From Bacteroidales bacterium (GTDB taxonomy: Bacteria; Bacteroidota; Bacteroidia; Bacteroidales; UBA932): a stretch of DNA of 64,000 bases. Below, one piece after another: positions 18,212 through 63,133 of this stretch. Within the stretch, counting starts at the first letter, position 1. Every line of letters begins with the position of its first letter. Position numbers and translations under genes: made by a program. The notes beneath the pieces are model-generated. The model searched no databases. It was not told where the DNA came from and was given only the letters and a program-made list of their open reading frames with translations. The stretch covers positions 22,850-86,849 of the forward strand of contig JAFSMS010000090.1 of assembly GCA_017447815.1 (NCBI GenBank), given 5' to 3'.

Positions 18212-20142
18212 ACAGCCTCTGGGATATCATACGGGACTTTTTCGTGAGTCTGCTGTCCTTCGACCAGGCCCATCCGCTGCTGTTCACCCAGTTCTATTTC
18301 TGGGCGTTTTTCGCGCTGGTTTTCGCCGTCTTCTCCCTCTTCCACTCCAAGGTGCTGCTGCGCAACGGCTACCTTTTTGCCGTTTCGCTGTTTTTCTACT
18401 ACAAGACCAGCGGAGTCTTCCTGGCGCTGCTGCTCTTTGTCATTGTCTATAATTTCTTCGCCGCCAAGGGCTTGCGGCGGCTTCGCTCGGAGAAGGCGAA
18501 ATCGGCCCTGACAGTCCTGAGCGTGGTGGTGGACCTGGGCATCCTGGCCTATTTCAAATATGCCTATTTCCTGACGGACTTCGTGAACAACCTTCTGGGG
18601 CTCAACCTGCAGGTGCACGATGTGCTGGGGGAATGGCTCAATATGCTGACGGGGACGTCCCTTTTCCGGGTCGATGCCATCATCCTGCCGGTGGGCATCT
18701 CCTTCTTCACCTTCCAGGCGGTGAGTTACGTGGTGGACGTGAAGCGGCGCCGGATTGCCCCGGTCGAGAATTTCCTGGACTTCGGTTTCTACCTGTCCTT
18801 CTTCCCGCAGCTGGTGGCCGGCCCCATCGTGCGGGCTTCGGAGTTCATCCAGCAGTTGCACAAGCCGTACAACCTGAGCCGGCGGTGGTTCGGCATCGCC
18901 ATCTTCTGGATTATGAACGGCCTTGTGAAAAAACTCGTCATGGCCGACTATCTGGCGGTGAATTTCTGCGACCGGGTGTTCGAGAATCCCTTGATGTACA
19001 GCGGCTTCGAGAATCTGTCGGCACTTTTCTGCTATTCCCTGCAGGTATATGCCGATTTCTCCGGCTACACGGACATCGCTACGGGCGTGGCCATGCTCAT
19101 GGGCTTTTATCTGCCCCAGAACTTTGACTCGCCGTACAAGGCGGTGAACACGCAGCAGTTCTGGCGCCGCTGGCACATGACGCTGTCGCGCTGGCTCAAG
19201 GACTATCTGTACATTCCGCTGGGCGGCAACCGCAATGCCACGGCGGGGACGTTCATCATCATTGCGGCGGTGGCGGTGTTCGGCAGTTTCCTCAGCGGCA
19301 GTTGGTGGGTGGCCTTCGGCGTTTTTGTGCTGGCGGCAGGCATCGGCCTTTGGGCCTGGAAACGGCCGCAGGACCGCAAACTCATCACCACCAACATCAA
19401 TTCCATGAACACCATGCTGCTGGGCGGCCTGTGGCACGGCGCCAGTTGGAATTTCATGATTTGGGGCGGCCTTAACGGCATCGGCATGGTCATCTATAAG
19501 ATTTGGACCAAGCGGAGCATGCTGCAGAAACTGTTGCTGATCAGTTCTCTCATGAGTATAAGCGCCCTGCTGGTGCGATGGACGCACGCCCCGGTGTGGA
19601 ACATGTTCACGGTGTGGCTGCTCATGATCTGGGTGGGGACTTTCGTGAAGTACTGCTACCGCTGGGCCGTCCTGGGGAGGGATGCGGTGGTCAAAGCGCC
19701 GGCGCTGACGGCCAAAGGGGCGGTGATTCCGGTGCAGTTGCCTTCGGCCCGTGCCCGCTGGATTTCCCGCGCATGGGATATTTTCCAGACCTTCGTGTTC
19801 ATCACCTTCACCCGGCTGTTCTTCCGCAGCGGCTCCAACCTGGACCCGGCCCTCGCCAACGAGCAGGCCTGGAACACCGCCAAGAACATGGTGAACCAGA
19901 TCGGGTCGGCCTGGGACCTGTCCCTGGTCCCCGCCATGGCCTGGCAGCACCGCGCCGTGCTCCTGCTTTTTGTGGTGGGCATGATCATCCACTGGCTCCC
20001 GGAGCGCTTCAAGCGCCGTTATCGCATTGTCTTTGCCCGTCTGCCCCTGTTCTGGATGGCCGTGGTGGTGGTCGCCATCATCCTCTTCTTCTTCCAGTTC
20101 ATCACCGCCGACCTCCAATCCTTCATCTACTTCCAGTTCTAG
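18208..20142 (+). CDS. MBOAT-family membrane O-acyltransferase (AlgI/DltB-like)
   Basis: A 644-residue polytopic membrane protein with the MBOAT core: YFFPQLVAGPI-like block (LSFFPQLVAGPIVRASEF), QFWRRWHMTLSRWLKDYLYIPLGGN, and the invariant His410 in GGLWHGASWNFMIWGG. It would move an acyl (probably acetyl) group across the membrane for transfer to a polysaccharide by the two SGNH partners. Compared with typical AlgI (about 470 residues) it has an extra hydrophobic insert between LGGNRNATAG and the His block, and a long C-terminal extension with further helices. Its stop overlaps that of the convergent ksgA. Confidence 0.88.
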   Translation: MNSLWDIIRDFFVSLLSFDQAHPLLFTQFYFWAFFALVFAVFSLFHSKVLLRNGYLFAVSLFFYYKTSGVFLALLLFVIVYNFFAAKGLRRLRSEKAKSALTVLSVVVDLGILAYFKYAYFLTDFVNNLLGLNLQVHDVLGEWLNMLTGTSLFRVDAIILPVGISFFTFQAVSYVVDVKRRRIAPVENFLDFGFYLSFFPQLVAGPIVRASEFIQQLHKPYNLSRRWFGIAIFWIMNGLVKKLVMADYLAVNFCDRVFENPLMYSGFENLSALFCYSLQVYADFSGYTDIATGVAMLMGFYLPQNFDSPYKAVNTQQFWRRWHMTLSRWLKDYLYIPLGGNRNATAGTFIIIAAVAVFGSFLSGSWWVAFGVFVLAAGIGLWAWKRPQDRKLITTNINSMNTMLLGGLWHGASWNFMIWGGLNGIGMVIYKIWTKRSMLQKLLLISSLMSISALLVRWTHAPVWNMFTVWLLMIWVGTFVKYCYRWAVLGRDAVVKAPALTAKGAVIPVQLPSARARWISRAWDIFQTFVFITFTRLFFRSGSNLDPALANEQAWNTAKNMVNQIGSAWDLSLVPAMAWQHRAVLLLFVVGMIIHWLPERFKRRYRIVFARLPLFWMAVVVVAIILFFFQFITADLQSFIYFQF

Positions 20143-21050
20143 GCCAGGAGGTTGGTAAGGGCGATGAAGTCCTCCACACCGAGCCGTTCCGGCCGGAGGG
20201 AAAAGACGTCCTGGGCGAGGAAGGCGGCAAGTTCGTCGTCAGACCAGCCCAGGCGGTCGGCTTTGGCGCGGGCGAGCGGCTTGAGTGGATTGCGCATCAT
20301 CTTCCGGCGCTGGCCGAAGGCCGTTTTCACCACCGTCTTGAACAGGGCCTCGTCGCAGCCAAGCGATGTGCGCCCGTTGCGCTTGAGCCGAATCACGGCG
20401 CTCTCCACTTTGGGCGGCGGGGCAAAGCAGCCGGACCCCACGGTGAAAAGGTACTCGATATCATACCAGGCCTGCAGCAGCACGCTCAGGATGCCGTAGG
20501 TCTTGGTTCCTGGCCCTTCGGCGATGCGTTCCGCCACCTCTTTCTGGACCATCCCCACCACTTCGGGGATGCGGTCCTTGTAGTCCAGCACTTTGAAGAA
20601 AATCTGCGAGGAGATGTTGTAAGGAAAATTGCCGATGACGGCAAAGTCCCCGTCGAAGATTTTTTCCAGGCGCAGCGTGAGGAAATCGGCCTCCATGAGC
20701 CGCCCCTGCATGCCCTGAAAATGGGTGAGAAGGTATTCGACGCTTTCAGAATCAATCTCCACGAGTTTGAGGTCGATATCGCTGCGCTCCAGCAGGTACT
20801 GCGTAAGCACCCCCATGCCGGGGCCAACTTCCAAGACGGGGGAAGGATGCATGATGTCCCCTTGAATGCGCTCTGCAGAGCGCCGGCGGAGGCCGTGTCC
20901 TTGGACTTGTTCCAAGGACATACTAGGCCGGGAGCCGCGGGGGGATAATAGGGGGGCAGCGCCCCCCTCTAAGGCATCTACGATGGCGCGGGCCACTTTC
21001 TGGTCGGTGAGAAAATGCTGGCCGAGGGCCTTTTTGGCACGGACTTCCAT
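20139..21050 (-). CDS. rsmA: 16S rRNA dimethyladenosine transferase with an in-frame insertion
   Basis: A 303-residue KsgA/RsmA homologue (usual length about 265) that dimethylates A1518 and A1519 of 16S rRNA. The N-terminus KKALGQHFLTD, SAM motif PVLEVGPGMGVL (71-82) and NFPYNISSQIFFK catalytic block are intact. Between VDAL and PVLEV about 43 residues (28-70) replace the usual 5-8; this stretch is Gly/Arg/Ser-rich and is encoded by a palindrome-rich DNA segment. The start at 21050 is one nt after the HAD gene's stop. The reading frame is uninterrupted, so the protein is probably functional with an extra surface loop. Confidence 0.92.
   Translation of the reverse strand: MEVRAKKALGQHFLTDQKVARAIVDALEGGAAPLLSPRGSRPSMSLEQVQGHGLRRRSAERIQGDIMHPSPVLEVGPGMGVLTQYLLERSDIDLKLVEIDSESVEYLLTHFQGMQGRLMEADFLTLRLEKIFDGDFAVIGNFPYNISSQIFFKVLDYKDRIPEVVGMVQKEVAERIAEGPGTKTYGILSVLLQAWYDIEYLFTVGSGCFAPPPKVESAVIRLKRNGRTSLGCDEALFKTVVKTAFGQRRKMMRNPLKPLARAKADRLGWSDDELAAFLAQDVFSLRPERLGVEDFIALTNLLA
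20841..20969. repeat. Palindromic element inserted in frame in ksgA
   Basis: This segment has no counterpart in normal KsgA. It contains a perfect 10-bp stem TGTCCTTGGA/TCCAAGGACA around loop CTTGT (20896-20920) and a G/C-rich palindromic block ATAGGGGGGCAGCGCCCC (20948-20965). The same blocks, CTTGT..C.AAGGAC followed by ATAGGGGGCAGAGCCCC, occur in the same order in the insert at 50278-50388. The element is open in the ksgA frame on the minus strand. Confidence 0.65.
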
Positions 21051-31802: not shown

Positions 31803-32885
31803 ATGGTGACGAAGACTGCATATTTCGACCTTTCCAGCCGGAACACTTTCCGGATGCGGGTGAAGTGCGCCCTGTTTGTAGAGGTGACGGAAGAGGCCGA
31901 TCTGGCAGCCCTGGACTGGGACGCCCTGCCCCAGCCGGTGCTGGTGATGGGCGGCGGCTCCAACCTCCTCTTTACCAAAGACTTTCCCGGCACAGTCCTT
32001 CATGTGGCCATCTGTCATTCCTCCCATTCCTGTCATTCCTCCCATTCCTGTCATTCCTCCCATTCCTGTCATTCTGAGCGAAGCGAAGAATCTGTCACCT
32101 GCGGCGCCGGGGTGGTCTTCGACGATTTCTGCGCCTGGGCGGCGTCCGAGGGCCTCTGGGGCCCCGAAAACCTCTCGCTTATTCCCGGCGAAGTGGGGGC
32201 ATCGGCCGTGCAGAATATCGGCGCATACGGCGTGGAGGCCAAGGACATCATTGCCGGCATCCGGGCCTATGACCGCACCACCGGCCAGTTCGTGGACATC
32301 CATCCGGCCGATTGTGCCTACGGCTACCGCACCTCCCGTTTCAAGACGGAGTGGAAAGGCCGATATGTCATCACCGCCGTCACCTACCGCCTCAGCCGCA
32401 CGCCGCAGCCCCGCCTGGACTACGGCGGCGTCCGCAAAGCCCTGTCCTGTCCTGCTGAGCGCAGCGAAGAATCCCTGACCCCGCAAGACATCCGGGAGGC
32501 CATCATCGGCATCCGCCGGCAGAAATTGCCCGACCCTGCGGAGGTGGGCAGCGCCGGCAGTTTCTTCTGCAATCCCGTCATCTCCCGCGAGCACTTCGAC
32601 CGCATCGTCGCCACCGCTCGCGAGGACAACGGCCCCGCCTATGAAGTGCCGCATTACGACACCCCGGACGGCATCAAAGTCCCCGCCGCCTGGATGATCG
32701 ACCAGTGCGGTTTCAAAGGCTGCCGGCAGGGGGGTGCTCAGGTGTATCCCGGGCAGCCGCTGGTGATTGTAAACGCCACAGGCACAGCGACTCCGCAGGA
32801 AATCATCGGCCTGGAGCAGCAGATTATCCAAACGATTGAACGCAAATACGGTATCACCCTTCATCCCGAGGTAGAACATGTCTAA
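31803..32885 (+). CDS. murB: UDP-N-acetylenolpyruvoylglucosamine reductase with two in-frame repeat insertions
   Basis: A 360-residue flavoenzyme that reduces the MurA product to UDP-MurNAc. FAD-binding blocks VLVMGGGSNLLF (47-58) and SLIPGEVGASAVQNIGAYGVE are intact; YGYRTSRFK, GSAGSFF (proton-donor Ser) and the C-terminal Glu region are present, placing it in the type I family. Residues 71-98 are three copies of CHSSHS plus CHSERSEES, and 215-224 are SCPAERSEES. Both are encoded by repeat DNA and replace loops seen in relatives. The frame stays open. The start is ATG 31803; the stop overlaps murA by 8 nt. Confidence 0.92.
   Translation: MVTKTAYFDLSSRNTFRMRVKCALFVEVTEEADLAALDWDALPQPVLVMGGGSNLLFTKDFPGTVLHVAICHSSHSCHSSHSCHSSHSCHSERSEESVTCGAGVVFDDFCAWAASEGLWGPENLSLIPGEVGASAVQNIGAYGVEAKDIIAGIRAYDRTTGQFVDIHPADCAYGYRTSRFKTEWKGRYVITAVTYRLSRTPQPRLDYGGVRKALSCPAERSEESLTPQDIREAIIGIRRQKLPDPAEVGSAGSFFCNPVISREHFDRIVATAREDNGPAYEVPHYDTPDGIKVPAAWMIDQCGFKGCRQGGAQVYPGQPLVIVNATGTATPQEIIGLEQQIIQTIERKYGITLHPEVEHV
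32013..32096 (+). repeat. 18-bp tandem repeat plus dispersed-repeat-like segment inside murB
   Basis: Three exact copies of TGTCATTCCTCCCATTCC (32013-32066) are followed by TGTCATTCTGAGCG and AAGCGAAGAATC. The last part resembles a short dispersed repeat (GAGCGAAGCGAAGAATC) that I know from many bacterial genomes. The 18-mer encodes CHSSHS, and the tail encodes ERSEES. Confidence 0.8.
32445..32474 (+). repeat. Second copy of the ERSEES-encoding repeat in murB
   Basis: The sequence GAGCGCAGCGAAGAATC (32457-32473) matches the tail of the first insert (GAGCGAAGCGAAGAATC) at 16 of 17 positions and is read in the same frame, again giving ERSEES. Confidence 0.7.
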
Positions 32886-34276: not shown

Positions 34277-35443
34277 ATGGACTACAGCAAATACTTTTCG
34301 GCCGATGTACCTTCTTTCCTGCGCTCGCCCGTGCGGGAAATTTTCCGCAAGGTGGACCTTTCGGCCATTTGTTCCTTCGCGGGCGGATATCCGGCGGCGT
34401 GCACGTTTCCGCTGGCCGATATCCCCGGCCTCACGGAGCGTGTGTTGGCCAAATACGGCACCAAGGCGCTGCAGTACGGTGCCACGCAGGGCGTTCCGGA
34501 ACTGCGGGAACTGATTGCTTCCCGCTATGGCGTGCCCGTTTCGCAGGTGCAGATCACCACGTCGTCCCAGCAGGGGATCGACGTGTGTTCGCGGGTGTTC
34601 CTGGACCCCGGCGACGTAGTGCTGGCCAGCAACCCCGTCTATCTGGGCGCCCTGCAAAGTTTCAAGGCCTATCGGGCCGATGTGAGGGATATCCCCTCGG
34701 GTGATGCCTCCGACGGGTACTTGTCCGGGGGTGGACAAGCCCCCAAATTCATCTATGTGATACCGGATTTCAACAATCCTACCGGAAAGACGCTGACCCT
34801 GACGGAGCGGGAAAGACTGGTGGCCCTGGCCCGGGAACTGGACTGCCTCATCGTGGAGGACAGCCCGTACCGCGAACTGCGCTACTCCGGCGAGGCGGTG
34901 CCCACCATCCGTTCGATGGCGCCGGAACGCACGCTGCAACTGGGCAGTTTCTCCAAGATTTTTGCACCGGGGTTCCGGCTGGGGTGGATCATCGGCCCGG
35001 AACCGCTGCTGGAGCAGATTTACGTGTGCAAACAGTGCCTGGACCTTTGTCCGCCGGTGCTGGACCAGTACCTGGCGGCCGAATTCTTGGGCTCCGGACT
35101 GCTGGACGCCAATTTGCAGAAGACCATTGCGGAGTACCGCCGCCGGCGCGACCTCATGGTCTCCCTGCTGGAAAAATACATGCCGGCGGGCGTTACCTGG
35201 ACCTATCCGGAAGGCGGCCTGTTCCTCTGGCTTACGCTGCCGCCCGCCGTGGATACCGTGGCGCTGTACGACCGTGCCCTCGCCGCCGGCGTGGCCTATG
35301 TGGCCGGCTCCTTCTTCTACACGGACGGCAGCCACCGCAACACCATGCGCCTGAACTTCTCCTTCGTGGACGAAGCCAAGATGGAACCGGGAATCCGTCT
35401 CCTAGTTTCCCTCCTCGGTGGCAACCAAGTTCCTGATTGTTAG
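34277..35443 (+). CDS. Class I/II PLP-dependent aminotransferase
   Basis: A 388-residue fold-type I aminotransferase. Key blocks are YGATQGVPELRELIA, FIYVIPDFNNPTGKTL, and SFSKIFAPGFRLGWIIGP with the PLP Lys227. It resembles the 2-aminoadipate/MocR-like subgroup. The next gene is dapF, so a role as the missing diaminopimelate aminotransferase is attractive, but this subgroup also covers aromatic and aminoadipate substrates. The first ATG is at 34277; an in-frame TTG 3 nt earlier is unlikely. A 7-bp hairpin CTTGTCC/GGACAAG lies in the linker coding for YLSGGGQ. Confidence 0.82.
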   Translation: MDYSKYFSADVPSFLRSPVREIFRKVDLSAICSFAGGYPAACTFPLADIPGLTERVLAKYGTKALQYGATQGVPELRELIASRYGVPVSQVQITTSSQQGIDVCSRVFLDPGDVVLASNPVYLGALQSFKAYRADVRDIPSGDASDGYLSGGGQAPKFIYVIPDFNNPTGKTLTLTERERLVALARELDCLIVEDSPYRELRYSGEAVPTIRSMAPERTLQLGSFSKIFAPGFRLGWIIGPEPLLEQIYVCKQCLDLCPPVLDQYLAAEFLGSGLLDANLQKTIAEYRRRRDLMVSLLEKYMPAGVTWTYPEGGLFLWLTLPPAVDTVALYDRALAAGVAYVAGSFFYTDGSHRNTMRLNFSFVDEAKMEPGIRLLVSLLGGNQVPDC

Positions 35444-35446
35444 ATA

Positions 35447-35490
35447 TTTACGTACAATCCTCTGCGCAAAATGAGCAGAGGAATATACAC
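35447..35490 (+). repeat. Intergenic palindrome (family B), copy 1
   Basis: TACGTACAATCC...TCTGCGCA and its imperfect complement TGAGCAGAGGAATATACA form a hairpin in the aminotransferase-dapF gap, starting 4 nt after the stop codon and ending 10 nt before dapF. It is the most diverged of four copies. Confidence 0.7.
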
Positions 35491-35500
35491 AACACATTGA

Positions 35501-36406
35501 ATGATAGAGAGTTACAAATCACGGATTTTTAAGTTTTCCGGTGCGGGGAACGATTTTGTGGTGCTGGACGGCCGACAGGGGGGCATGGAGCCCTTCCGCG
35601 AGCCGGGCAGGATCGGCGCATTGTGCCGCGAGTACCATACGGACGGGCTCATGATTCTGACCCGTCCCGTCCTGGACCGCTCCGACCGGCCCGTTTCCCC
35701 GGACTTCGTGATGGAATTCTACAACCCCGACGGTTCCGGCGGCATGATGTGCGGCAACGGCGGGCGCTGCATCGTGGCCTTTGCCGATTATCTCGGCATC
35801 CTTCCGGCCGACGGCCGCACCTACCGCTTCCTCGCCCCGGACGGCGATCATATCGCGGAAATCCTCTCGAAAGAGCATTCCGCTCACTGGACGGTTCGGC
35901 TGAAAATGATTGATGTTCACGGAATTACGCCCATGAAAGGCGGTTATTTCCTGAATACCGGCACAAGGCATTTCGTAAAATTCACGACCGGGGTGGACGG
36001 CCTGGACATGGAGGCCGATGCCAAGCCGCTCCGTTGGGATCCAGCCTTCCAGCCGGAAGGCACCAACGTGAATTTTGTGGAAGTCCGCTCCGACGGCCTT
36101 CACGTCCGCACTTTTGAAAAGGGCGTGGAAGGGGAGACGCTTGCGTGCGGCACCGGCCTCACGGCATCGGCCCTGGCCGCCTGCAAGGCCGGCATCCCTT
36201 GTTCCTCCGGAGCGGAGCAGCCCATGGGGTCCGGGGAATCAGGCCCCCGGAATGCCGAAGACAAGACGGTATCGCAGGCGGTGTACCGCCTGCAATGCCG
36301 CCGCGGCGACTGGCTCCAGGTATGTTTCCGTCCGGGTCCCGATGACCGCTTCTCCGAGGTTTACCTCACCGGTCCCGCCGAACTGGTGGCCGTTAATCCC
36401 TTATAG
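35501..36406 (+). CDS. dapF: Diaminopimelate epimerase with a C-terminal-half insertion
   Basis: A 301-residue epimerase (usual 260-275) converting LL- to meso-diaminopimelate for peptidoglycan and lysine. N-terminal FSGAGNDFVVLDGR and the two catalytic cysteine blocks MMCGNGGRC and LACGTGLTASALAA are intact. Between ALAACKAGIP and VYRLQCRRGDWLQV lies a Gly/Ser/Pro-rich stretch of about 25-30 residues (about 232-261) not expected in the family. The start follows palindrome copy 1 by 10 nt; copy 2 begins about 5 nt after the stop. Confidence 0.92.
   Translation: MIESYKSRIFKFSGAGNDFVVLDGRQGGMEPFREPGRIGALCREYHTDGLMILTRPVLDRSDRPVSPDFVMEFYNPDGSGGMMCGNGGRCIVAFADYLGILPADGRTYRFLAPDGDHIAEILSKEHSAHWTVRLKMIDVHGITPMKGGYFLNTGTRHFVKFTTGVDGLDMEADAKPLRWDPAFQPEGTNVNFVEVRSDGLHVRTFEKGVEGETLACGTGLTASALAACKAGIPCSSGAEQPMGSGESGPRNAEDKTVSQAVYRLQCRRGDWLQVCFRPGPDDRFSEVYLTGPAELVAVNPL
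36198..36282 (+). repeat. Probable in-frame insert within dapF
   Basis: The segment begins CTTGTTCC, contains CCGGGGAATCAGGCCCCCGG (36232-36250 region) and ends ACAAG. The terminal CTTGT/ACAAG and the G/C palindrome recall the ksgA and dapE-like inserts, but identity is weaker. It codes for the extra loop in DapF. Just downstream, GCAGGCGGT/ACCGCCTGC forms another perfect stem in the coding sequence. Confidence 0.45.
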
Positions 36407-36411
36407 CACAG

Positions 36412-36458
36412 TTGTTTACGTACAATCCTCTGCGCAAAAAGCGCAGAGGATTGTACAG
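36412..36458 (+). repeat. Intergenic palindrome (family B), copy 2
   Basis: GTACAATCCTCTGCGC (36420-36435) and GCGCAGAGGATTGTAC (36441-36456) form a perfect 16-bp stem around AAAAA. It is located 5 nt after dapF and 33 nt before the PanE-like gene. Confidence 0.85.
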
Positions 36459-36491
36459 AAGTAGTTGAAACAGAGAGAGATAAGAATCACT

Positions 36492-42222: not shown

Positions 42223-42261
42223 GCCGCCCCCGGGTGGCCGTTAACTCGCTGATACACATGT

Positions 42262-42310
42262 GTTTACGTACAATCCTCTGCGCATTTTGCGCAGAGGATT
42301 GTACGTAATA
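42262..42310 (+). repeat. Intergenic palindrome (family B), copy 3
   Basis: A perfect 21-bp stem: arm 42264-42284 (TTACGTACAATCC then TCTGCGCA) pairs with 42288-42308 around a 3-nt TTT loop. This is the longest and most perfect copy. It lies 140 nt after the barrel gene and 133 nt before blaI of cassette 2. Confidence 0.9.
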
Positions 42311-42380
42311 TGCTCATAGTCAGGGAGATACCAGCCACCCGCTGCGCCATTCAAGCAGCACTATAAATTTACGGAAAACT

Positions 42381-44053: not shown

Positions 44054-45231
44054 GAAGGCTGATCCTCTTAGCGCTTTGGATGATGGTCTGCGTGCCGCTG
44101 GGTGCGCAGACCACGCATCGCGATTCTCTCATCGTCCGAAGCCGGTATCTCCGCAGCGTTCTCCGCACGGACGAGGCCATCGGCCTGCTTTCCACGCTGG
44201 TGTCCCCGGAGCGGATGGATGTCGATATCCTCTCCGAACTGGCCGACTGCCATTTCCAGAGCGGCCATTACGAGGAGGCCGCGCTCTTGTATGACATGCT
44301 GTCGCTGCAAAACCCCGGCAACCTCCTTTTCAAATTGCGCAAAATGCAGATTTTCTACCGGGTAAAGGCCTGGCGGCAAACCGTGGAGGCCGGTAAGGAA
44401 GTCCTGGCGCTGGACACCATTCCCGCGGTGTTGGGCTATGTGGGAGACGGATTCAAGCAGTTGGAGCAGGCCGATTCGGCCCTGTGGTACTATCGCCGCT
44501 CCCTGGCCCTGAAACCGCAGAACGCCGCCACCGTGTCCAAGGTTTTCGATATCCTGGTGGGACGGGATGCGTTCGAGGAAGCCATCGCCCTTACGAGCGC
44601 TTATTTGGAGAAAGATCCGGACAATCCGGTGGTGGCTCCGCTCTGCGGGCTGGCCCATTACCGGAAAGGGGAGTATGACACCGCCGCCGCCATTTTCGAG
44701 CGCCAACTGGAACTGGGCAACGACACCTATCCCATCCACTATTATCTGGGCCAGAGTTACTGGCATACGACCCGCGCCTACCGGGCCGACAAGGAACTGC
44801 TCGCCGCCTGGCAGATCGATTCCTCCGACGTGACCCTGGCTTACAACATCGCCGCCCTTCGCACCGACTTGAAGCTTCCCTTCGAGATGGTGCAACCCTG
44901 GGTGGACCGGGCCTGGGAGATGAGCCAGCCCGACAACAAAATGCTTTTCCAACTGCACCGGCTGTATGCCCAGGGCTTCAGCCACAACCCGAAGGAGGCC
45001 GCCCGGGCCCTCCGCCATTACGAGGAGGCTTATCGGCTCAATCCCAAATACAAACAGGCCTTTTTGCAGATGGGCTACCTTTATGAGCGCCAGGAAGAAA
45101 GGCGGAAAGCGATAGAGTGCTACGAGCGCTTCCTGAAAGAGGCCGGTCCCCAACACGACCGTTCCCGCTGGGTCCGGGAGAGAATAGCTGCCCTGAAAGC
45201 CGAAGAATTCATGCAATCCCCTGATCGCTAA
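44050..45231 (+). CDS. Exported tetratricopeptide-repeat protein (cassette 2)
   Basis: A 393-residue protein with signal peptide MRRLILLALWMMVCVPLGAQ and TPR units throughout (ADCHFQSGHYEEAALLYDMLSLQNP; AYRLNPKYKQAFLQMGYLYERQEERRKAIECYERFL, both in part). It is the third gene of the second BlaI-M56 operon. The start at 44050 overlaps the upstream stop; the frame remains open further upstream but lacks a signal peptide there. Partner and role are unknown. Confidence 0.85.
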   Translation: MRRLILLALWMMVCVPLGAQTTHRDSLIVRSRYLRSVLRTDEAIGLLSTLVSPERMDVDILSELADCHFQSGHYEEAALLYDMLSLQNPGNLLFKLRKMQIFYRVKAWRQTVEAGKEVLALDTIPAVLGYVGDGFKQLEQADSALWYYRRSLALKPQNAATVSKVFDILVGRDAFEEAIALTSAYLEKDPDNPVVAPLCGLAHYRKGEYDTAAAIFERQLELGNDTYPIHYYLGQSYWHTTRAYRADKELLAAWQIDSSDVTLAYNIAALRTDLKLPFEMVQPWVDRAWEMSQPDNKMLFQLHRLYAQGFSHNPKEAARALRHYEEAYRLNPKYKQAFLQMGYLYERQEERRKAIECYERFLKEAGPQHDRSRWVRERIAALKAEEFMQSPDR

Positions 45232-45248
45232 CCACCTGATACATAGTT

Positions 45249-45296
45249 GTTTCCGTACAATCCTCTGCGCAAAATGCGCAGAGGATTATATGTAAC
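45249..45296 (+). repeat. Intergenic palindrome (family B), copy 4
   Basis: TCCTCTGCGCA (45261-45271) and TGCGCAGAGGA (45275-45285) form a perfect 11-bp core stem. The outer arms (GTTTCCGTACAA/TTATATGTAAC) pair partly with G-T and mismatches. It lies 17 nt after the TPR gene, in the gap before dapA. Confidence 0.8.
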
Positions 45297-45348
45297 GGGC
45301 TGGGAATCATTTGATTATCGGCCACTGTAAATAATCCGGAAATTCTTC

Positions 45349-50058: not shown

Positions 50059-51174
50059 ATGAATTGGGAATTGTTTAAAGCGTTGTTGTCGTTCGATTCC
50101 ACTTCCGGAAAGGAGCGGGAGGTGGCCGATTGGCTGCTCCGCACTCTGGAGGCCCCGTCCATCGAGGCGCAGGAGGTGGGGGACGGCAAGTTGAACCTTC
50201 TCCTGAAGTGGGGCACCCCCCAAGTGGTATTCTGCACCCACATGGACACCGTTCCGCCGTATATTCCCCCGACATTTCCGGCTTCGCTTTTCCCGGAGCT
50301 TGTCTCGAAGGACTGTCGGCGCCCATCAGAGCGCCCGGCCGGCCCCGGGATTTTACCGGGGGACGATAGGGGGCAGAGCCCCGTCAAGGGCCGGGGAAGC
50401 TGCGATGCAAAGGGGCAGATTTTTGCGATGTACACGGCATGCAAGGAACTGGAAGCCAGCGGGTTCACGGATTTCGGCCTGCTGCTGCTTGCCGGAGAGG
50501 AAACAGGGTCGTGGGGCGCCAAGGCCTTTGCCAGGACCGATTTCCGCGCTCCGTTCCTGATCGTGGGGGAACCCACGGAGAACAAGATGGTAAGCGCTTC
50601 CAAGGGCACCAAGTCGTACGACCTCACATTCCGCGGCGAGGCCTTCCATTCGGGCTATCCGCAGTATGGGGTGAGTGCCGTAGATTTGTTCGTCCAGTTC
50701 TATAACCAGCTCAAGGCCAAGGATTTCGGTATGGATCCGCTCCTGGGAGAAACCAGCTGGAACGTGGGGCTCCTGCACAGCGGCAATCCGCAAAACATCC
50801 TTTCCCCTGAACTCACCTGCCGCCTGTATTTCCGCACCACCTTCGTCTCCGACCGGGCGGTGCAGGATTGGATGGCGGCGCTCCCGGAAAGGACGGCCCT
50901 TTCCGGAAAACAGGCGGTCTCCGTTGTGGCTCGGGGCGGGGATGCGCCGGCGCGCTATGTGACCCTGCCGGGCTTCGGGCATGCGCCGGCGGCCTTCGGC
51001 AGCGATGCGCCGCACCTGGGCAATTTCGGCCATAAAATCATCTGCGGCCCCGGAACCATCCGTGTCGCCCATCGGCCCGACGAGCATATCCTCGTGGCCG
51101 ACCTGGAAAAGGCCGTGGAACAGTATGTACGGATGTACAAGGAACTGACCGCCCCGGCAGGCACAACGCCGTAG
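50059..51174 (+). CDS. dapE: M20-family deacylase, probable succinyl-diaminopimelate desuccinylase, with an in-frame insertion
   Basis: A 371-residue zinc amidohydrolase. Metal-binding blocks are THMDTVPP (His61, Asp63), GRGSCDAKGQ (Asp116), GEETGSWGA and GEPTENK. The closest families are ArgE/DapE/carboxypeptidase; its place between asd and dapB together with dapD argues for DapE (inference). Residues 74-110, between YIPPTF and GRGSCDAKG, replace the usual 6-10 residues with a Pro/Arg/Gly-rich stretch encoded by repeat DNA. Without it the length would be normal for this family. Confidence 0.8.
   Translation: MNWELFKALLSFDSTSGKEREVADWLLRTLEAPSIEAQEVGDGKLNLLLKWGTPQVVFCTHMDTVPPYIPPTFPASLFPELVSKDCRRPSERPAGPGILPGDDRGQSPVKGRGSCDAKGQIFAMYTACKELEASGFTDFGLLLLAGEETGSWGAKAFARTDFRAPFLIVGEPTENKMVSASKGTKSYDLTFRGEAFHSGYPQYGVSAVDLFVQFYNQLKAKDFGMDPLLGETSWNVGLLHSGNPQNILSPELTCRLYFRTTFVSDRAVQDWMAALPERTALSGKQAVSVVARGGDAPARYVTLPGFGHAPAAFGSDAPHLGNFGHKIICGPGTIRVAHRPDEHILVADLEKAVEQYVRMYKELTAPAGTTP
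50278..50388. repeat. Palindromic element inserted in frame in the dapE-like gene
   Basis: Contains CTTGTCTCGAAGGAC (50299-50313) and ATAGGGGGCAGAGCCCC (50366-50382), both also present, in the same plus-strand order, in the ksgA insert. An additional 25 nt (GCGCCCATCAGAGCGC region) and CCCCGGG...CCGGGGG lie between them. The dapE-like gene reads it on the plus strand, ksgA on the minus strand, so both strands of the element can be coding. Confidence 0.65.
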
Positions 51175-62217: not shown

Positions 62218-62991
62218 ATGAGCACATCTCACCGCTACTGTGTCATTATGGCCGACGGCACCGGCTCGCCCAAGCAGTTGCAGGTTACGTACGACCGTTT
62301 CCGCGAAGTGGTCCCTGAAGACCACATCCTTGTGGTGACCCTGGCCCGTTTCGGCGACGAGGCCCGCCGGGTGCTTCCTATGCTCCCGGAAAAGAACCTC
62401 CTGCTGGAACCTTTCGCCCGCAAGACGGCGCCCTGCATGGCCTTTGCCGCCTATACGCTGCTGTCCCGGGATCCCGAGGCCGTGATCGTGGCCACCCCGT
62501 GGGACCTTGTCATCCGCGACGAGAGCCTGTTCGCCCATACGCTCAAGGAGGCTTTCGGCTACGTGGAGGAGAATGACGTCCTGATGACCCTGGGCATCGT
62601 CCCCAAGAATCCGGATGTGAATTTCGGCTACATCCAGGTGAAGGAAGGCCGCAACGCCCACCTGATGGCCGGTCCGTTGCAGGTGAAAACCTTTACGGAG
62701 AAGCCCCCGCTGGAACTGGCCGAGGTGTTCGTCCGCACTGGAGAATTCTTCTGGAACAGCGGTATCTTCGTGTGGAAGGCTTCCACCATCGCCGCCGAGA
62801 TGGAACATTACATTCCCGAAGTGACGGAACTGTTCCGCGGCTGGCAGGAGCATATCGCGGATCCCGTGTGGCTGGAGAGGGCCTATGCCGAATGCCCCAA
62901 AGTCTCCCTGGACTACGGCGTCATGGAACGCACCTCCCGTGCCTGGCTCTATCCCGCCCGCTTCGGCTGGGCCGATATCGACCGATTGTGA
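62218..62991 (+). CDS. Degenerate, short mannose-1-phosphate guanylyltransferase-like protein
   Basis: A 257-residue relative of ManC (usual about 355). The body aligns well: VTLGIVPKNPDVNFGYIQVKEG, FTEKPPLELAEVF and FFWNSGIFVWK. The nucleotide-binding signature GGxGxR...PKQ is reduced to MADGTGSPKQL, with loss of the Arg and about 20 residues. The PSDH metal site reads PWDL. The chain stops at FGWADIDRL, where relatives continue for about 100 residues, and the stop lies within the first copy of a 74-bp repeat. The protein is probably inactive or repurposed; no continuing frame was seen downstream. Confidence 0.75.
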   Translation: MSTSHRYCVIMADGTGSPKQLQVTYDRFREVVPEDHILVVTLARFGDEARRVLPMLPEKNLLLEPFARKTAPCMAFAAYTLLSRDPEAVIVATPWDLVIRDESLFAHTLKEAFGYVEENDVLMTLGIVPKNPDVNFGYIQVKEGRNAHLMAGPLQVKTFTEKPPLELAEVFVRTGEFFWNSGIFVWKASTIAAEMEHYIPEVTELFRGWQEHIADPVWLERAYAECPKVSLDYGVMERTSRAWLYPARFGWADIDRL

Positions 62992-63133
62992 ATCGGCCGA
63001 TATCAAAACTATCAACGTTGCCCCCTCCCGAAACCCCTCCCCTCGGGGGAGGGACTTGTTTGTGAATCTGTCGATGTCAAAACTATCAACGTTGCCCCCT
63101 CCCGAAACCCCTCCCCTCGGGGGAGGGACTTGT
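62986..63133 (+). repeat. 74-bp tandem duplication containing G/C-rich palindromes (family C)
   Basis: Two adjacent 74-bp units (62986-63059 and 63060-63133) differ at only a few positions near their left ends. Each carries CCCTCCC, GAAAC, CCCTCCC and GGGAGGG, able to form a G/C stem, and ends GGGAGGGACTTGT. The first unit overlaps the stop codon of the manC-like gene. A related copy is between nrdD and nrdG. Confidence 0.85.

Follow-up and report, generated by a model that had tools for sequence, protein, structure and literature searches.

A three-hairpin repeat of a Bacteroidales genus lies in frame in ksgA and other conserved genes and resembles the Rickettsia palindromic elements

Published accounts describe or cite coding palindromic repeats in Rickettsia, Wolbachia and Methanocaldococcus, as well as REPs inside genes of several taxa (PMC10969869, PMC2229807, PMC3767692, PMC3733652, PMC5771137, PMC2635572). 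The Rickettsia palindromic elements (RPE-1 and others) are about 100–150 bp long and come in several families per genus, and orthologues may share the position of their inserts (PMC2229807, PMC3767692, PMC10969869). The coding palindromes of Wolbachia and Methanocaldococcus are mentioned in two of these papers (PMC2229807, PMC3767692), one of which leaves insertion into hot spots as an open possibility for such elements (PMC3767692). Intragenic REPs of the GTAG and CGTC families are reported from conserved genes, truB among these, for example in Opitutus terrae, Rickettsia conorii and Thioalkalivibrio (PMC3733652). ERIC and the 107-bp Correia element, both bacterial MITEs, are characterized as small, non-autonomous and sometimes fused in frame (PMC2229807). 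Searches of the open-licence PMC literature listed no Bacteroidales equivalent of a coding palindromic element, in agreement with the initial annotation of the DNA analyzed here, which knew of no named one.

The repeat described below occurs in a 64,000-nt stretch of a Bacteroidales genome (contig JAFSMS010000090.1, positions 22,850 to 86,849; hereinafter the window). Like the RPEs, it is a hairpin-rich, multi-copy repeat situated both between genes and in frame within conserved genes, measuring 74–113 nt in the copies read and in frame in 30 of 91 of them; by analogy, it would work much like the RPEs in an unrelated lineage of gut Bacteroidales. It is unlike them, as RPE descriptions go, in having a Bacteroidales genus from another phylum as host, a GC content of about 70% and a three-hairpin layout; it also differs in showing identical copies on opposite strands, different repeat families in one and the same loop and many copies flanking tRNA or tmRNA genes. 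Similarly, it is akin to the palindromes of Wolbachia and Methanocaldococcus as a coding palindromic repeat outside Rickettsia, though in other taxa. With the intragenic REPs it shares a truB host gene (locus L075); however, REPs are 20–40 bp hairpins tagged with GTAG or CGTC, whereas the present element has three hairpins and shows the GTAG motif near hairpin 3 in just 6 of 91 copies. Like the MITEs, it is small and presumably non-autonomous; its two ends are unpaired in the consensus fold, and no clean empty/filled pair was seen in which a target-site duplication would show. We regard it as a non-autonomous, hairpin-forming mobile repeat that moved as DNA and whose in-frame copies survive in tolerant loops, a reading to which we assign a probability of roughly 0.8.

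The best-preserved copy in the window lies in ksgA (20139..21050, minus strand), which codes for the 16S rRNA adenine dimethyltransferase, of 303 residues when read from its ATG. The Pfam RrnaAD domain spans the insert (E 2.2e-44, residues 28–285 of the longer ORF), and invariant residues flank it on both sides in an alignment of 69 KsgA sequences. The spacing between the IVDAL and (V)LEVGPGMG motifs is 44 residues in the window protein versus 5 in the shortest orthologues, giving 39 extra residues, which bears out the earlier count of about 40 at a palindrome-rich block; the block indeed folds into three hairpins. A comparison with the solved KsgA structure 3tqs likewise places 5 versus 42 residues between the two matched segments. 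The insert follows the first long helix and precedes the strand that opens what we take to be the SAM-binding motif. In the AlphaFold model of the window protein, ten-residue blocks have pLDDT values of 87–98 apart from the N-terminal ~10 residues and residues 31–64, with residues 1–9 and 31–64 falling below 50. The modeled insert fits a tolerated disordered loop in an enzyme that may have kept its activity.

The full-length element copy occupies 20868..20968 in plus orientation. Our covariance model R1 gives it 110.3 bits (E 1.2e-17 for the window search), the copy being itself one of the 11 from which that model was built. As ksgA lies on the minus strand, it reads the opposite strand of the element, as EGGAAPLLSPRGSRPSMSLEQVQGHGLRRRSAER. 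Hairpin 1 (20868..20883) is the perfect palindrome GCGCTCTGCAGAGCGC, for which other copies show compensatory variants. Hairpin 2 (20884..20937) has the stem CGGC/GGC/TGTCC..GGACA/GCC/GCCG, of which the best DNA fold of the window copy alone makes the inner part only, and hairpin 3 (20950..20968) is AGGGGGGCAGCGCCCCCCT. With DNA parameters, the block folds with z-scores of −4.25 and −4.76 on the two strands, in either case beating all 200 dinucleotide shuffles. The structure is reflected in the evolution of the copies: the 11-copy consensus comprises 28 pairs, of which 13 have changed on both sides, and its covariation score was reached by none of 500 shuffles. The model re-found 91 copies in 91 sources; among the 85 distinct ones, 21 of the 28 base pairs show compensatory changes and 95.2% of cells pair, in an alignment that, having been fitted to the model structure, leans towards it. 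A search of five loci against Rfam 15 matched solely the neighboring tRNA, while the ksgA copy obtained one below-threshold match (19.2 versus 44 bits) and hence no family. Immediately 3′ of the element, the two PurL copies (L205 and L207) have an additional, identical inverted repeat (cagacaatgac..gtcattgtctg), so that a further 3′ module may form part of certain copies.

The element is dispersed in its own genome and across its genus. Relatives of the ksgA copy in the same genome lie beside tRNA-Val (contig C36), beside tRNA-Ala (C28) and on C76, where a partial copy sits in frame, downstream of the family 2 glycosyltransferase domain of its host gene. A strict pattern of the 3′ half has four matches in this genome and 15 in genome G172, with 4 of the 20 genomes searched lacking one, while the reversed-pattern control has no match in any of the 20. 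At E 0.01, the covariance model matches 170 of 400 genomes of the genus, the own genome included, with 10 candidates scored per genome so that copy numbers are lower bounds. This supports the initial proposal of a small palindromic element. In a sample of 247 genomes from the order, searched at the stricter threshold of 1e-4 as against 0.01 for the genus, the own genome alone matches; none of the other 246 does, although one is from the same genus and two are from the same family. The exact core additionally occurs in records of uncultured Bacteroidales, including genomes from red deer and goat omasum. As far as sampled, then, the element is confined to one Bacteroidales genus, probably Cryptobacteroides, to judge by the size and habitat of the genus. 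The 91 copies considered throughout come from the upper part of the genus match list, with some rows skipped, and decayed copies are under-represented among them.

The second match of the model in the window (50319..50385; 24.2 bits, E 0.011) is a degenerate, shortened copy in a dapE-like M20 peptidase gene (50062..51174, plus strand; Pfam Peptidase_M20, E 2.8e-15, and M20_dimer). Here the gene reads the plus strand of the element, so that, as initially proposed, the two genes of the window use opposite strands. The loop between the HMDTV and DAKG motifs has 59 residues as compared to 28 in the shortest orthologues (31 longer). Only hairpin 1 (GCGCCCATCAGAGCGC, 50319..50334) and hairpin 3 (GGGGGCAGAGCCCC, 50369..50382) are recognizable, the central stem of the model being gone, and the folding of the insert does not surpass that of shuffled sequences (z −0.70 and −0.79). 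Nevertheless, degenerate though the copy is, the two inserts do align: the ATAGGGGGCAGAGCCCC hairpin common to both gives a local score of 30, reached by 1 of 1000 dinucleotide shuffles, and the dapE insert scores 39 (0 of 1000 shuffles) against a copy of a sister subtype beside a Y1 transposase gene on contig C94 of the same genome. It is probably a decayed relative of the element. The initial annotation had reported two ordered blocks shared by the inserts. The first of them, CTTGT..C.AAGGAC, lies after hairpin 1 in ksgA and before it in dapE and is therefore not homologous by position. Taken alone, the block pattern has three matches in the window versus 3.73 expected, which is chance level.

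Entry into conserved genes in frame, surmised from the window, recurs on a broader scale: the 30 in-frame copies comprise 16 read on the minus strand of the element and 14 on the plus strand. The minus-strand hosts are KsgA (three), the DapE loop (two), Fmt, GH43 (two), an aminotransferase (two), RibF, TruB, TilS, DnaX, a THUMP-domain protein and DapF; the plus-strand hosts are YgiQ-type radical SAM proteins (five), a MiaB-like and a YggS-like protein, DnaG, PurL (two), FtsK, an NTP_transf_5 protein, a penicillin-binding protein and an M20 peptidase. Names such as YgiQ, TilS and MiaB are our reading of Pfam families; four hosts (L067, L207, L046, L063) were assigned via an orthologue and one (L206) by an upstream Pfam match and an open frame, rather than by scanning the whole gene, element included, with Pfam. 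The element has Pfam segments to its left and right in KsgA, YgiQ, Fmt, GH43, RibF, the MiaB-like protein, PurL, the penicillin-binding protein, the M20 copy L233 and TruB (its C-terminal domain match being just under the cut-off), and on one side only in TilS, DnaG, FtsK, DnaX, the NTP_transf_5 protein and the THUMP-domain gene. Outside the element, the host genes are under purifying selection (w 0.08–0.14 in seven species pairs); the element itself has too few changes for a dN/dS reading.

Because the coding set was sought via open frames spanning the element, copies that break a frame are under-detected. We therefore also screened the 42 copies neither in the first coding list nor near a tRNA, of which 10 are flanked on both sides by open frames of at least 80 codons on the same strand. 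Pfam searches of the pieces of these 10 (for L219, of the downstream piece only) identified L206 as DapF with the element in frame, L196 as a copy between RnfB-like and RnfC-like genes, and L185 and L209 as copies following the ends of an Omp85 gene and a pseudouridine synthase gene, respectively. For the remaining six, Pfam returned nothing informative, so that the apparent absence of broken genes is tentative.

The possibility of reading the element on either strand is borne out by pairs of identical copies. In genome G253, TruB (L075) reads as EVGSAPLLSPCGSRPISP... a stretch that a MiaB-like gene (L184), with 95 of 95 nucleotides identical, reads as QRSSERPAEAVSDEGG..., and an 89/89-nt identity on opposite strands links TilS (L074) and a YggS-like gene (L186) of genomes G345 and G318. 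Such DNA, coding on both strands, offers a clean natural case of parasitic DNA seeding new protein segments. An element open on both strands had been proposed as a notable coding parasite, and the double reading upholds this, but the openness as such is what composition leads one to expect: 26 of 29 coding copies are open on both strands versus 75% of their shuffles, and 49 of 62 other copies versus 74%. These values are about the shuffle level, as GC-rich composition predicts, and openness as an adaptation is rejected. With about 70% GC, the element usually has at least one open frame per strand and can therefore be carried in either orientation.

The loops that house the element are re-used. 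Across 70 ksgA loci (30 best matches and 40 picked by hand, often for a match that reached the N-terminus, hence not an unbiased set; all but L126 entered the above protein alignment), the loop ranges from 5 to 63 residues. It holds the present element in three species, its sister subtype on the opposite strand (read as DNA for G150, G385, G242 and G256, and by peptide only in the others), a palindrome of unrelated sequence that occurs in both orientations (in G208 and G247, among others), or different short sequences. The dapE loop spans 28 to 111 residues between HMDTV and DAKG (22 of 31 loci readable) and contains different repeat families by species, as does the aminotransferase loop (10 of 13 distinct loci readable). 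Since the genus has hundreds of sequenced species in which one loop is short, or filled by either family in either orientation, both target choice and structural tolerance become measurable. The unrelated palindromic repeat, GCCTCCGCTTCGCTCC..GGCCGAGGGTGGCCAGAGG (L083:2220-2298, in the ksgA of G208), is matched 8–32 times per genome in nine other genomes and once in that of the window; it is also in frame, in both orientations, in DapE and aminotransferase loops of other species.

Relationships among the copies cut across genes. Among the 91, the nearest relative of the window ksgA copy is that in the dapE loop of G248 (97%), ahead of the ksgA copy of G172 (91%), and the G149 ksgA copy is closest to a dapE copy of G313 (99%) versus 89/102 positions shared with the G172 ksgA copy. 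Hence, same-site copies do not all represent one old insertion, unless they were exchanged by conversion. In the G248 dapE (L048:1185-2438), HMDTV has its His replaced by Asn, and the loop with the element contains a CHSERNEES repeat as well; the gene is perhaps decaying. Species pairs with a copy at the same site in GH43, PurL and the aminotransferase have elements identical at 101/101, 96/96 and 98/99 positions, with flank dS values of 0.44–0.93, and their junctions are identical too, as for one insertion. Four other same-site pairs (ksgA and three YgiQ) share 92/101, 88/95, 87/89 and 85/89 positions, a divergence far under that of their flanks. Such near-identity is not expected of a neutral insert that is inherited vertically. 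The element could be strongly constrained, its copies could have been exchanged or converted recently, or exact insertion could have recurred.

On the favored reading, the element would spread as DNA, presumably mobilized in trans by some enzyme, and would settle between genes, beside tRNA or tmRNA genes and inside genes. Intragenic copies would persist if they left the reading frame of the host open and had landed in a surface loop that tolerates them, and would then be translated as a roughly 30–40-residue, probably disordered loop. Neither a transposase nor a target-site duplication was found for the element, nor did a close strain show a clean empty site, and we therefore infer its movement from sequence identity; transposition by a dedicated enzyme, translation of the inserts and retained activity of the host enzymes are likewise what we infer. 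A bolder, tentative proposal, which we consider possible but doubtful, is that the loops of KsgA, DapE, the aminotransferase and YgiQ, together with tRNA and tmRNA 3′ flanks, are genuine preferred targets, repeatedly hit at the same place in different species and in either orientation by several unrelated palindromic families whose copies were recently exchanged. The element would then belong to a site-preferring system of coding parasites that spreads through a genus, rather than to random insertions filtered by selection.

That the inserts are merely old, hypervariable, lineage-specific GC-rich loops of KsgA and DapE, alike in composition, would accord with the great variability of loop length and sequence within the genus and with the chance matches that GC-rich blocks yield; yet copies 97–100% identical in unrelated genes, the covariation and the matchless control for the 3′-half pattern make this highly improbable. 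For the ksgA copy it is refuted by the dispersed relatives, while for parts of the dapE insert it is possible. The surroundings of the non-coding copies raise another option, namely a regulatory or RNA-processing module, such as a 3′-end signal beside tRNA or tmRNA, that is copied by gene conversion and intragenic by accident. While 41 of the 91 copies are intergenic or unassigned, 20 have a tRNA or tmRNA gene at most 100 nt away (at most 10 nt for 13 of them), and 18 of these 20 have hairpin 3 towards the 3′ end of the RNA, in a tRNA scan that covered 90 of the 91 sources, the window being the exception; the little-diverged same-site copies would also suit conversion. However, 30 copies sit inside genes, 230 of the 400 genomes lack a match at E 0.01 with 10 candidates scored per genome, and copies at the same tmRNA flank differ in length and 3′ end (L054, L193, L199/L200), so we judge a regulatory origin quite unlikely. 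In all, the 3′ flank of the tmRNA gene is occupied in five species (L054, L193, L199, L200 and L014), 3–7 nt from the gene end.

A REP-like element mobilized by a RAYT (Y1 HUH) transposase would explain both hairpins and dispersal. Y1 genes are present in 31 of 43 genomes, one such locus of the own genome (L245, on C94) is adjoined by a copy of the sister subtype, and the six copies mentioned above carry GTAG in their last 30 nt, close to the foot of hairpin 3. Against this, Y1 genes are about equally frequent in element-poor (15 of 22) and element-rich genomes (16 of 21), five of the latter lack a Y1 match, 9 of the 10 Y1 loci read have no such adjacent copy, and 85 of the 91 copies lack GTAG near hairpin 3. 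Y1 genes are thus common yet not associated with the element, and with one adjacent copy in 10 loci we consider a RAYT partnership unlikely. Finally, the strong, conserved pairing could point to removal of the element before or during translation, by splicing or ribosome bypassing, leaving a protein without the insert. In the coding copies found, though, the frame of the host is uninterrupted, a feature that removal would not call for (albeit in a search that favored open frames), and a match to an Rfam family is absent; we see very little chance of such removal. The mobile repeat surviving in tolerant loops accordingly remains our preferred reading.

Several other repeats share these genomes. 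In the window, a hairpin repeat distinct from the element, GTACAATCCTCTGCGCAAAA.GCGCAGAGGATTGTAC, has four copies (35417-35514, 36385-36482, 42233-42330 and 45220-45317), and a hairpin resembling it occurs close to a match to Y1 transposase in the same genome. At 62986-63133, a 74-nt unit with CCCTCCCGAAACCCCTCCCCTCGGGGGAGGG forms two tandem copies that are 96% identical. Nine-base tandem units CTGTCATTC/CTCCCATTC at 32012-32099 and 32440-32480 run into a TGAGCGAAGCGAAGAATCT repeat; the CHSERSEES-type peptides seen in the ksgA and dapE loops of other species are probably this CTGTCATTC/CTCCCATTC/TGAGCGAAGCGAAGAATCT repeat in another frame. At L002:1600-1900, a tandem array of units like CCCCAAAGACTGCATCCCAGGGGCAAAAACGGCTCAATTTG stands beside one intergenic copy of the element.
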